From positions 177,389 through 241,388 of the forward strand of contig NZ_KE384551.1 in the NCBI RefSeq assembly GCF_000426645.1: a DNA stretch of 64,000 nt. The letters run 5' to 3'. This stretch comes from Nakamurella lactea DSM 19367 (GTDB lineage Bacteria > Actinomycetota > Actinomycetes > Mycobacteriales > Nakamurellaceae). The notes beneath the pieces are model-generated. The model made no database searches. It saw only the letters and a program-made list of their open reading frames with translations, and was not told the DNA's origin. Each line of letters begins with the position of its first letter. Position 1 is the stretch's first letter. Made by a program: the position numbers and the translations under genes. Below, piece after piece: positions 13,315 to 47,868 of the stretch.

Positions 13315-13391
13315 TGGTGCCCCCGGTGGGACTCGAACCCACACTGTGACCATTTTAAGTGGCCTGCCTCTGCCGATTGGGCTACGGGGGC
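13315..13391 (-). tRNA. Class I tRNA with anticodon UAA (nominal Leu codon UUA)
   Basis: A complete cloverleaf: acceptor GCCCCCG/CGGGGGC, D stem GCC/GGC, anticodon stem GGCCA/TGGTC (one G-T pair) with loop CTTAAAA, T stem GTGGG/CCCAC with loop TTCGAGT, discriminator A and an encoded CCA. The anticodon is TAA, which reads UUA. The variable region is only 5 bases (ACAGT), so this is a class I tRNA, whereas bacterial tRNA-Leu is class II with a long variable arm. Amino-acid identity is therefore uncertain. I believe similar tRNAs recur in actinobacteria, but I cannot verify that here. Confidence 0.88.
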
Positions 13392-33991: not shown

Positions 33992-35317
<1,326 letters not shown>

Positions 35318-37068: not shown

Positions 37069-39192
37069 ATGACGATCAACGGGGATGCGTTGCCGATCGA
37101 GCTCGCCAAGGGGAACAATGTCGCATTGCGCGACCTCGACGAAGAACTTGGCTCAGTCACTGCGGTACTTGAGACGACCGGAACTGACGGGCAGCCGATC
37201 GACGCGGACGTCAGTGTCTTGCTGCTCAACGCGGAGGGCAAAGTCAGATCCAACGACGACTTCGTTTTTTACAATCAGCCCGTTGCGCTGTCCGGTGCCA
37301 TCCATCTCCGCGACAAGATCCGCTCCGATGACGACGACCAACCCGTCTCGACCGACATGGTCACCGTCGAGCTCGACGGTGTTCCGGATGACATCCAGCG
37401 GATCGTTCTCTGCGCCAGTCTCGACCAGTCGCTGAGTCAAACCTTCGGCGACGCCGCGGCGGTGCGGTTGAAGATCCGAAAGTCCGATGATGCTACTGAA
37501 CTGTTGGTATTCACTGCCAGCGACGCATCTTCGGAGACAGGATGGATCTTCGGTGAGTTCTACCGCCGACAGGAGGAATGGAAGTTCAGAGCGGTAGGCC
37601 AAGGATTCGACGACGGGCTCGCCCAGTTGGCACTCGAATTCGGCGTCGAAATCGATCAACCCGATGGGGCGTTGACGGCGGATGACGCCCAGGGTCCAAC
37701 TGTGGAAACCTCCGGACCTGGCGAATTCATCGACGAGCAAGTTGATGACTCGACCTCCCCCGCCCCGGCGGGGCGAGGATCGCAGCCGGCCGGAACGACC
37801 ATGAGCAGCACCGACTCGCCTGCCACGAATCCCGGGTTTGATTCAACGGACGAAAGCACCACAACGGTCTCCGTACGCCGACCGGTACGCCCGCCAAAGC
37901 TCCCGTCCGACTGGAACAGCACAGTCCCTACGGACTCGGATACCGATTGGCAAACTGCTCGGCTCTTCCCCGTCGCCGGCATCGGTGGAGCCGAGGAACA
38001 AGAGCGGCGAGCAACCTCGGCACTGTTGGCAGTCATGCGACTGGTCAAGGAATTCGGCCGATCCATCATGAAGAAGTTCGGAGCCCCCTCGGGAGCCGTC
38101 GAGACGTTCATCGAAGTGCCGTTCGGGCTGGACGACCAGGCCTACCGGCCTGACGGTGTCGTTCGTGTGACTCGCGGAAAGCGCGTGTGGACCACCCTGG
38201 TCGAGGTGAAGACGTCCGACGCGAAGCTGACCGACGCGCAAGTCGACAAGTACGTCGACATCGCCCGCGACAAGGGGATCGATGCGGTTTTGACCATCAG
38301 CAATCAACTGACCGGCTCCTCCGATGATCACCCCGTCACCATCGACAAGCGCAAGCTCAGGAAGGTATCGCTGCACCACCTGTCGTGGGACGAGATTCGG
38401 ACAGAAGCCACCCTGTTGGCGAAATACGAACGAGTCAGTGATCCGACTCAGCAGCGAGTTCTTGAAGAGTTCCTGCGCTACATGACCCACGCGCGATCTG
38501 GACTGCACGGCTTCACGAACATGGGGCCGCAATGGGTCAAGGTCCGCGATGCTGTACGCGCCCAAACACTCCGGAGCACCGACAAGGGCTGCGCAGACGT
38601 AACCAGCCAATTCGACCAGCTGATCCAGCGCGTCAGCCTGGACATGTCAGGTCTGCTCGGCGTCGAAACAGCGGCCATGGCGCCTCGCAATCGTTCCGAC
38701 AGCGCTACCAGACAGCAACAACTGGCCGACTCCGGCCTTCTGTTCGGCTCGATCAAGATCCCGGGCGCGGTCGATCGAATCGTCGTCGAGGCTGATCTCC
38801 GCACCGAGCACGTAACGTGTTCGGTGCGGATCGATGCACCACGGGAAGGGCGGGCTCAGACCCGGGTGAACTGGCTGCTCCGGCAGATACCTGAGGCTCG
38901 CGACGGTCTACGGATCGAGGCCGTTCTCACCGGCGGCCGTGGCCAAACGACGGTCGGCCTTCTCGGAGCAATCCGGAAGCGGCCGGACCTGTTGATCCCT
39001 ACCGATACTCGCGAGATCCGAGCCTTCAAGATCAGCTTCGAGACGAACATGGGGTCCAAGCGGTCCGGGAGCAAGGACGGCCTCATCACATCCGTGGAAA
39101 CCTCCGTGATCAGGTTCTACGGCGAGGTGGTCCAGAACCTTCGCAGCTGGAACTCGCGTGCGCCCCAACTCGGCTCGTCGGGCGGCAATTGA
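37069..39192 (+). CDS. TerD-domain protein fused to a PD-(D/E)XK nuclease-like domain
   Basis: 707 residues. About 1-190 is a TerD (tellurium/stress) calcium-binding beta-sandwich: PIELAKGNNVALRDLDEELGS, a region with DDDDQPVSTDMVTVELDGVPDDIQRIV, and GEFYRRQEEWKFRAVGQGF. A Ser/Thr/Asp-rich linker spans about 200-285. The next part has RPDGVVRV (Asp362) and LVEVKTSDAK (Glu379, Lys381), with QVDKYVDIARD afterwards, the order and spacing of a PD-(D/E)XK nuclease core. The remaining ~280 residues are unassigned. Ter proteins with nuclease partners have been proposed as stress or phage-response modules. GC is visibly lower than in neighbours. The start ATG lacks a strong RBS. Confidence 0.78.
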   Translation: MTINGDALPIELAKGNNVALRDLDEELGSVTAVLETTGTDGQPIDADVSVLLLNAEGKVRSNDDFVFYNQPVALSGAIHLRDKIRSDDDDQPVSTDMVTVELDGVPDDIQRIVLCASLDQSLSQTFGDAAAVRLKIRKSDDATELLVFTASDASSETGWIFGEFYRRQEEWKFRAVGQGFDDGLAQLALEFGVEIDQPDGALTADDAQGPTVETSGPGEFIDEQVDDSTSPAPAGRGSQPAGTTMSSTDSPATNPGFDSTDESTTTVSVRRPVRPPKLPSDWNSTVPTDSDTDWQTARLFPVAGIGGAEEQERRATSALLAVMRLVKEFGRSIMKKFGAPSGAVETFIEVPFGLDDQAYRPDGVVRVTRGKRVWTTLVEVKTSDAKLTDAQVDKYVDIARDKGIDAVLTISNQLTGSSDDHPVTIDKRKLRKVSLHHLSWDEIRTEATLLAKYERVSDPTQQRVLEEFLRYMTHARSGLHGFTNMGPQWVKVRDAVRAQTLRSTDKGCADVTSQFDQLIQRVSLDMSGLLGVETAAMAPRNRSDSATRQQQLADSGLLFGSIKIPGAVDRIVVEADLRTEHVTCSVRIDAPREGRAQTRVNWLLRQIPEARDGLRIEAVLTGGRGQTTVGLLGAIRKRPDLLIPTDTREIRAFKISFETNMGSKRSGSKDGLITSVETSVIRFYGEVVQNLRSWNSRAPQLGSSGGN

Positions 39193-45911: not shown

Positions 45912-46370
45912 TCAGCGCAGCGCGATGACCGCGTCTAGTTCGACGGAAGCGTTGCCAGGCAACGAGCTGACGCCGACGACGGTACGGGCATGTGTTCCGA
46001 TTTCCGGACCGAAGGTGTCCAACAGCAGGTTCGAAGCCGCGTCCAGCACGGCCGGATGGTCGGCGAAATCGTCCGCAGCGCGGACGAATCCGCGCACCTG
46101 CACCACCGCAGCCACCGCGTCCAGGCCGACACCGTGCTCCAGCGCGGCGAGTAGGTTGATGGCTGCCCGCTCGGCTTCCTGACGGGCCGCCTCGACATCG
46201 AGTGTGGCACCGACAACCCCCGCCAGCGGCCCGTGTTCACGGGACCGACCTGTACATCCGGAGACCCACGCGGTCCCCTGGAAGATCCGCACCGGCACGT
46301 AGGACCCCTTGGGTCGCAACGGCTCCGGCAGCACGATGGAGCGGAGCGCGAGCCGCTCGATCGGCCTCAC
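45912..46370 (-). CDS. ridA: RidA-family enamine/imine deaminase-like protein
   Basis: 152 residues of the YjgF/YER057c/UK114 family. RTVVGVSSLPGNASVELDAVIALR at the C-terminus contains the substrate-binding Arg and the family-defining final strand; VSGCTGR lies near the N-terminus. RidA proteins hydrolyse reactive enamine/imine intermediates from PLP enzymes. The GTG start overlaps the fgd stop (GTGA), so it is coupled to an F420 enzyme, an association I do not recall as common. The N-terminus is slightly longer than in standard 125-residue RidA. Confidence 0.85.
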   Translation of the reverse strand: MRPIERLALRSIVLPEPLRPKGSYVPVRIFQGTAWVSGCTGRSREHGPLAGVVGATLDVEAARQEAERAAINLLAALEHGVGLDAVAAVVQVRGFVRAADDFADHPAVLDAASNLLLDTFGPEIGTHARTVVGVSSLPGNASVELDAVIALR

Positions 46371-47383
46371 GCGTCGCCGGCGATGCCGAGCGCGCGCAAC
46401 CGCGGCAGCACTTCCTCGCCGTACAGCGTCAGGAAACGGGCCTGATCGGTGCCGGGTGCGTGGAACACCAGGTGCTTGAACCCCAGATCGACGTACGTCT
46501 TGATCTTCTCGACGTGCTCTTCCGGATCGGTCGAGACGATCCACCGGGACGCCGCCCGCTCCACCGGCAGCGCATCGGCCAGCCGCTGCATCTCGATCGG
46601 GTCGTGGACCTGGGTCTTCTCCTCCGGCGAGAGCGCCAGCGCGGCCCAGTTCTTCGTGTCCGCCAGCGCCCGGTCTGCGTCGTGGTCGAAGGACACCTTC
46701 ATCTCGATCAGCAGGTCCAGGTCGTCCAGCGTCCGACCCACCTTGCCGGCCCCCTCGTCCAGCGCCGGCAACAGGGTCTGCGAGTACAGCTCGGGAGCTT
46801 TGCCGGAGGTGGTGATGAAACCGTCGGCCACCCGCCCGGCCAGCCGGGTGGCCGCCGGGCCCGAAGCACCGACGTACAGCGGGACGGGCTGCTCCGGCTT
46901 GTCGTAGATGGTCGCCTTGTCCGTCGAGTAGTAGGTGCCCTCGAAGGTCACCCGGTCCTCGACCCACAGCTTCTTGATCAGCGTGATCGCTTCCTTGAGC
47001 CGGGCGAACCGCTCCTTGCCGTCCGGCCACTGCAGGCCCAATGCCACCTCGTTGAGCGACTCCCCCGATCCGACGCCGAGAATCACCCGGCCCGGGTACA
47101 GCAGGCCCAGGGTTGCGAAGGCCTGCGCGATCACCGCCGGGTGGTACCGGAAGGTCGGCGTCAGCACCGAGGTGCCCATCACGATCTTCTCGGTCCTTGC
47201 CCCCACCGCACCCAGCCACGGCAACGCCGCCGGGGCGTGTCCGCCGTCATGTCGCCAGGGCTGGAAGTGATCCGACACGAACACCGAATCAAACCCGGCC
47301 TGCTCCGCCAACACCGCGAAGTCCGCCAGTTCCACCGGCCCGAACTGCTCAGCAGATGCCTTGTAACCCAACCGAAGCGCCAT
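46367..47383 (-). CDS. fgd: F420-dependent glucose-6-phosphate dehydrogenase
   Basis: A 338-residue luciferase-like TIM-barrel enzyme. LGYKASAEQFGPVELADFAVLAEQAG, FVSDHFQPWRH (Asp38-His39), GTSVLTPTFRYHPAVIAQAFAT and GVGSGESLNEVALG (catalytic Glu) match mycobacterial Fgd1 closely. It oxidises glucose-6-phosphate to 6-phosphogluconolactone while reducing cofactor F420, supplying F420H2 for reductases. The start ATG has AAAGGA upstream. It is first gene of an operon with ridA. Its presence implies F420 biosynthesis elsewhere in the genome. Confidence 0.95.
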   Translation of the reverse strand: MALRLGYKASAEQFGPVELADFAVLAEQAGFDSVFVSDHFQPWRHDGGHAPAALPWLGAVGARTEKIVMGTSVLTPTFRYHPAVIAQAFATLGLLYPGRVILGVGSGESLNEVALGLQWPDGKERFARLKEAITLIKKLWVEDRVTFEGTYYSTDKATIYDKPEQPVPLYVGASGPAATRLAGRVADGFITTSGKAPELYSQTLLPALDEGAGKVGRTLDDLDLLIEMKVSFDHDADRALADTKNWAALALSPEEKTQVHDPIEMQRLADALPVERAASRWIVSTDPEEHVEKIKTYVDLGFKHLVFHAPGTDQARFLTLYGEEVLPRLRALGIAGDA

Positions 47384-47868
47384 ATACCCGTCCTTTCGTG
47401 ATCTGCTCACGGTAGACGACGCTCCCGCGCGCCCTTCGGCCGGCCAGCGAGCGGCCGGCAACGCCGCCAGGCCCAATGGTGACCAGTAACCGGAGCACCG
47501 CGGGATGATCAGCCACGACGATTTCGTGAACGCGGGAACGCACCGACCACGATCGCCGATTCCAGCCCGGCGCCCGTTGAGAGCAGTGCCGCCACGGTGC
47601 ACCTCATCGGCGGCCGTGAATCGCTCTGCCACTGCCGTCGTGACCTCGGGGAATCCAACTCCTTCACCATCTGTAGAACCGTCATCGGGTCACAACCGGG
47701 AAGGGTTTGGGAAGAAGAGACCAGCGGCGATATCGACTTCGCCGCAGCAACATCCGACCGTATGCGTCCTCGAAGGGACACCCTCGCCGGAAGCTAGCGT
47801 TGGACGACGTGAAACGAACAGTGCCGGCCGAACGCTCACCTCATAGGTCGTGCTTCCAGTGGAGGGTG
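47384..47868. other. Intergenic region between fgd and the ECF sigma gene
   Basis: About 485 bases with no supported gene. Short open frames exist on both strands, but their translations look random. A GCCGGCC/GGCCGGC stem lies at 47439-47459. The right part should contain the sigma-factor promoter; I could not find a clear ECF-type -35/-10 pair. Confidence 0.5.

Follow-up and report, generated by a model that had tools for sequence, protein, structure and literature searches.

A TerD domain joined to a predicted PD-(D/E)XK nuclease in Nakamurella lactea, with relatives scattered among actinobacteria

The window, a stretch of 64,000 nucleotides of the genome of Nakamurella lactea DSM 19367, contains a gene that joins a TerD sensor-like domain to a well-conserved predicted nuclease, an architecture that was confirmed at the level of the sequence. 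The sensor domain and the nuclease motif are known; their combination, together with the C-terminal domain that follows, is without description in the literature examined. For the comparative analysis of Ter systems the key paper is that of Anantharaman et al. 2012. A fusion of TerD with a nuclease is not described in the excerpts of the TerD literature examined, which include PMC7159879, PMC3710099, and PMC7824862. In excerpts from these three papers TerD is viewed as a sensor that binds a ligand, and the Ter systems are assigned to stress or to anti-phage functions. The gene defines a nuclease family of patchy occurrence in actinobacteria, whose C-terminal domain lacks a Pfam family. Its features are:

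37069..39192, + strand: TerD-nuclease fusion gene, 707 aa (open frame, translated)
37096..37641, + strand: TerD domain, residues 10-191 (Pfam PF02342, E 1.3e-44; PDB 2kxt, 3ibz)
37642..37938, + strand: low-complexity linker, residues about 192-290 (composition, by eye)
37939..38406, + strand: predicted PD-(D/E)XK nuclease core, residues about 291-446 (invariant motif; weak Pfam matches)
38002..38004, + strand: E312, conserved Glu (124 of 126 modules; 16 of 16 in alignment A1)
38113..38115, + strand: E349, conserved Glu (124 of 126 modules)
38152..38154, + strand: D362 of the PD motif (124 of 126 modules)
38203..38205, + strand: E379 of ExK (126 of 126 modules)
38209..38211, + strand: K381 of ExK (126 of 126 modules)
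38239..38241, + strand: Q391 of QxxxY (124 of 126 modules)
38407..39168, + strand: conserved C-terminal domain, residues about 447-700 (alignment A8; without Pfam family)

Domain layout and the predicted active site

Residues 10-191 are a bona fide TerD domain. They match the TerD family with 152.3 bits, compared to a gathering score of 25.3, over positions 3-187 of the 187 positions of the profile, and they match the solved TerD structures 2kxt (E 5.8e-33) and 3ibz (E 1.9e-27). An earlier note on this DNA had placed a TerD domain upstream of PD-(D/E)XK-like residues, and exactly this order was recovered in the translated frame, in which D362, E379, and K381 sit in the context RPDG...LVEVKT. 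An acidic stretch, which we take to be the calcium-site region, and the blocks FGE.YR and WKFRAVGQG are common to the TerD part of the window protein and two TerD proteins from the same genome in an alignment read by eye. In its canonical form TerD stands alone and is about 190 aa long, and two full-length TerD matches in the genome sit in short frames, whereas the TerD domain of the window is fused to a nuclease module. Further TerD genes are present in the genome (L003, L005-L008); three TerD matches lie close to one contig end (C1:7731-9677), and TerD matches also occur within frames of 455-534 aa on C17 and C5.

The part between TerD and the nuclease core had been described as a disordered linker. 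By eye, from its composition, the stretch at residues 192-290, approximately, is of low complexity; many relatives without TerD start directly downstream of this stretch. The C-terminal stretch, which had been left unassigned, has kept this status, as the last approximately 255 residues are without a convincing match to a Pfam family or to a PDB entry. The domain can nevertheless be aligned in all 25 sequences tried (A8), with 15 invariant columns. The NCBIfam search with the window protein gave no match at E values up to 10, and a promoter scan found none.

The case for a nuclease is carried by the conservation of the motif. The earlier note had read Asp362, Glu379, and Lys381 as a PD-(D/E)XK-like site, a reading that is borne out by their conservation in 124, 126, and 126 of 126 modules, respectively. 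Alignment A1 comprises the window protein and proteins from 15 of the 17 other genomes with a clear match (left out were L024, which contains an internal stop, and the truncated L026), and its rows were found by whole-protein similarity, so that the motif played no part in their selection. At identities of 35-45% to the window protein, E312, E349, P361, D362, E379, K381, Q391, and Y395 are invariant in all 16 rows, and none of 200,000 column shuffles of the alignment yielded an invariant PD-x(8,30)-(D/E)xK. The window protein thus displays the conserved E...PD...ExK...Q motif by which the PD-(D/E)XK superfamily is recognized, E312 being presumably the first-helix position of the nuclease core. 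In the 126-module set the count for E312 is biased, because the pattern of the wider scan covers this position; D362, E379, K381, and Q391 lie outside this pattern.

All seven motif positions are intact in 123 of the 126 distinct modules from all sources, including that of the window. One exception is L049, whose frame starts within the module or immediately before it; the other two are Allokutzneria proteins that have lost D362 and Q391, degenerate second copies just upstream of an intact copy. In both Allokutzneria species (L091:5758-9368 and L122:5872-10043) the intact nuclease downstream of the degenerate paralogue lacks TerD, and in L122 the paralogue is 56% identical to the intact copy. 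The two copies possibly constitute an active/inactive pair.

Several known nuclease families were compared with the core. Among 25 core sequences searched against Pfam at E values up to 1, VRR_NUC was matched by 15 (best E 0.00082), Tox-REase-7 by 12 (best E 0.00046), and TnsA_N by 11 (best E 0.0038); each of the other 11 Pfam families listed was matched by one or two. VRR_NUC, Tox-REase-7, and TnsA_N all have PD-(D/E)XK folds. For the window core the top nuclease match is VRR_NUC (PF08774) at residues 360-406, spanning the PD..ExK region and positions 64-109 of the 116 positions of the profile, but its 19.8 bits are below the cut-off of 23.8. Tox-REase-7 (PF15649) reached 14 bits against a cut-off of 25, TnsA_N (PF08722) was not among the Pfam matches listed for the window protein, and no nuclease family reached its Pfam cut-off with this protein. 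In profile alignments with hhalign, for which short or interrupted sequences were dropped (18 of 21 Mrr_cat and 18 of 24 NERD matches were retained), Mrr_cat was aligned with an E value of 0.0045, and one of five shuffled controls was better (0.0016), while NERD was not significant (E 0.053, probability 1%; best of five shuffles 0.095). VRR_NUC had a single match in 119 genomes, too few for a profile alignment. Searches of PDB sequences with the module or the core gave only chance-level matches. An assignment to one of the named subfamilies VRR_NUC, Mrr_cat, or NERD was rejected on these grounds, and because the Pfam, profile, and PDB matches are weak, the protein is called a predicted PD-(D/E)XK nuclease without a named subfamily.

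It could be argued that the motif arose by chance and that the protein is no nuclease, since its core is without a Pfam match above the cut-off and without a PDB match. The outcome of the column shuffles and the concordance of the weak matches to three nuclease families make this highly improbable. A protein with a nuclease fold that has kept only the binding of DNA or of a partner, and no cleavage, would be conceivable in view of the Allokutzneria copies, which demonstrate that degenerate versions exist; with the motif intact in nearly all modules and in the window protein itself, a pseudo-enzyme also seems very unlikely here. Judged from its conserved residues, the protein is very probably a nuclease.

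Distribution and acquisition

When the whole protein was searched against 396 genomes from the phylum, 31 matched in any part, and the C-terminal module (residues about 290-707) was clearly matched in 18 of these, including the own genome; G086 gave a short partial match to the module. The extracted frames contain TerD and the module in the own genome and six others, the module without TerD in ten, and a frame cut by a contig end in one. A first scan of genome contigs with the C-terminal module of the window alone resulted in 184 pattern matches and no relative, and a second scan with a closer subset alignment resulted in 233 relatives, the best 80 of which all belong to Actinomycetota according to their titles. 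Within the class the module was matched in 43 of 296 genomes. In the genus Nakamurella it is present in ten of 17 genomes, where it always shares a single open frame with a TerD match, and the other seven have none. The module represents an accessory family of patchy distribution in actinobacteria, and most of its members lack TerD.

On a tree of 126 modules the 35 rows with a TerD fusion fall together in one group. Only one row of this group is without TerD (L049), and it pairs with the copy on a Streptomyces glaucescens plasmid. The TerD label needs two changes on this tree, compared to a mean of 30.7 after shuffling. The group contains copies from Streptomyces and Rhodococcus plasmids, Frankia, Nocardioides, and Nakamurella. 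The tree is a quick one with SH-aLRT support, some long branches, several open forks, and a midpoint root, and because it has only this root it is compatible with both directions of change, i.e., TerD may have been gained once in the fused group, or it may have been lost from the remaining modules. The Nakamurella fusions fall into two parts of the group (L052 and L174-L176; L177-L182), which suggests transfer or an old duplication. As 91 of the 126 modules have no TerD in frame, TerD is dispensable for the basic function of the module.

The earlier note had suggested from a low GC content that the gene was acquired. The content is indeed low, 61.4% compared to 68.7% for the window, and none of 619 sliding stretches of 2124 bases (100-base steps) is as GC-poor, making the gene the lowest-GC stretch of its size in the window. 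A GC content below that of the flanks was found for 11 of the 12 loci labelled TerD-fused and for 59 of the 68 others among 80 genome-contig loci, and 18 further fused loci were lower in 13 cases and higher in five. The site was analyzed via matches to its flanking genes in 17 Nakamurella genomes:

33992-35281: enolase, flank of the segment
35282..46366, no strand: segment of about 11 kb that carries the fusion gene, from enolase to the luciferase-like monooxygenase gene
46367-47632: luciferase-like monooxygenase gene, flank of the segment

The flanking-gene matches are 11,088 bp apart in the window and 7,939 bp in G669, where the fusion is also present. They are separated by only 179-921 bp in six of the 17 genomes, and by 3-5 kb in three; in three more they share a contig at a distance of about 15 kb or above, and in three genomes they lie on different contigs or are absent. 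The enolase/luciferase-like junction is a variable site: it spans 0.2 to 15 kb in 11 of the 17 genomes, and a twelfth genome has 41 kb there. The contents of the segment were compared between the window and G669; in the window it also carries APH-like, RibD_C, GH20, MFS, and LtrA genes, and no Pfam name in it is that of a defence family. Convincing direct repeats that could represent attachment sites were not found at the enolase site, and the sole tRNA of the window is located at 13315-13391.

The module was also found on 11 plasmid records from Streptomyces and Rhodococcus, with 38-41% identity, and in the four plasmid regions read in detail TerD is in frame with it, and the neighbours differ from those in the window. 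The ten annotated records name the product only "TerD family protein", i.e., after its TerD half. Because of the low GC content, the near-empty site in six of 17 genomes, the patchy distribution, and the plasmid copies, acquisition of the gene is supported. None of 50,697 phage records was matched by the C-terminal module. One of 76 viral-contig candidates encodes a relative (L039), but its DNA was unmatched in phage records, and the idea of a phage gene was dropped.

Neighbourhoods and possible functions

No neighbour recurs widely at 80 loci, the commonest family after the gene itself being present at 15 of them. Pfam matches for 136 of 312 neighbours, among the 25 of 108 families listed, are mostly ordinary (His_Phos_1, 4; sulfate permease, 3; HsdM/N6_Mtase, 2). 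The earlier note had regarded homologues confined to core neighbourhoods, with the Asp, Glu, and Lys not conserved, as evidence against its reading; the three residues are conserved, and the neighbourhoods vary. Stand-alone terD genes were detected in two of 18 fused loci (16-20 kb each), while the other 16 are without another terD nearby. One relative adjoins components of a Ter stress system: in G662 (L196:6489-12729) the fusion is situated directly downstream of two stand-alone terD frames and directly upstream of terB, all four on one strand, and a DUF475/TerC frame is found close to them.

The explanation that we are on balance inclined to accept as a whole is that of a single-protein sensor-nuclease. 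The effector would consist of the PD-(D/E)XK core together with the conserved C-terminal domain, and in one lineage of this effector a TerD domain would be attached at the N-terminus through a flexible linker. TerD would most likely bind calcium or the small molecule that serves as a signal in Ter stress systems. It would control or place the nuclease, which would then cut invading DNA or that of a cell under stress. We infer that cleavage of DNA would be metal-dependent and gated by TerD, and that the protein would act against invaders or against chemical or DNA stress. The nuclease is probably regulated by TerD, and should such a switch exist, the ligand of TerD would become testable through a simple nuclease read-out, as a natural fusion offers an enzymatic read-out for the direct testing of calcium or a nucleotide-like ligand.

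What the sensor-nuclease would act upon is a separate question. The first reading of the sequence combined three ideas, of which TerD with a nuclease-like core and acquisition have stood, while the proposed defence device gained no backing from PADLOC matches or from a widely recurring neighbour. A defence role of the gene is nevertheless plausible. The gene could be a solitary anti-phage or anti-plasmid gene, in which TerD would sense infection and the nuclease would degrade invading DNA or kill the cell, an explanation to which we give somewhat less than an even chance, as we do for an anti-invader role in general. The patchy distribution, the plasmid copies, the low GC content, and the variable chromosomal insertion site are in agreement with it, as are Ter components tied to anti-phage functions (excerpts of PMC3710099 and PMC7824862) and a few defence- or conflict-like neighbours, e.g., type I methyltransferases (2 of 136) and ThiF/Mov34 on a Rhodococcus plasmid. 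However, the window protein matched no PADLOC family at E values up to 10, and no neighbour family exceeds 15 of the 80 loci. The PADLOC families of neighbours and controls overlap in generic families, as mad2, mad3, mad8, and AriA appear in the neighbour set (A4) and in the control alike. The families numbered 62 and 67 for 272 of the 312 nearest neighbours versus 30 for 128 control proteins, which were taken from 19 of 20 regions placed arbitrarily. This excess for the neighbours is nominal and is compatible with either outcome, because the counts are of families (25 listed per scan) and not of proteins, and many families are redundant models of one protein.

Alternatively, the protein might be a nuclease for DNA repair or processing under chemical, oxidative, or UV stress, regulated via TerD. 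TerD genes are stress genes, the copy in G662 adjoins terB, terC, and terD frames, and the sub-threshold Pfam match is to VRR_NUC, a family that includes structure-specific repair nucleases. A minimal ter operon also raised the UVC survival of Escherichia coli in one pilot study (excerpt of PMC8123226). A repair nuclease would be expected to be retained more widely, in contrast to the absence of a match in 253 of 296 genomes of the class and seven of 17 of the genus, and its neighbours do not recur widely, so that we regard this alternative as rather unlikely. The accessory distribution would speak more for a role in conflict than for one in core repair. A broader proposal is put forward tentatively, namely that the family comprises mobile single-gene immune or stress nucleases of actinobacteria with a PD-(D/E)XK core and a new C-terminal domain, and that in one lineage a fused TerD reads a signal of the Ter system and acts as the switch of the nuclease.

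Genes for RES-type NAD+ phosphorylases are near the fusion in both Rhodococcus plasmids among the four plasmid regions read, and in one of the two ThiF/Mov34 genes follow about 2 kb downstream; in one Streptomyces plasmid a polymorphic-toxin HINT gene is located about 5.5 kb from the fusion. On the Rhodococcus plasmid pRZP3 (L070:8543-18139) the fusion lies between the gene for a RES family NAD+ phosphorylase and a ThiF/Mov34/DUF6602 set, which looks like a conflict system. In G661 (L195:11624-13597) a DUF222-HNH endonuclease gene adjoins the TerD-nuclease gene, and a homologue of this frame is found near the TerD-nuclease gene of G657 (L199:5598-7889).
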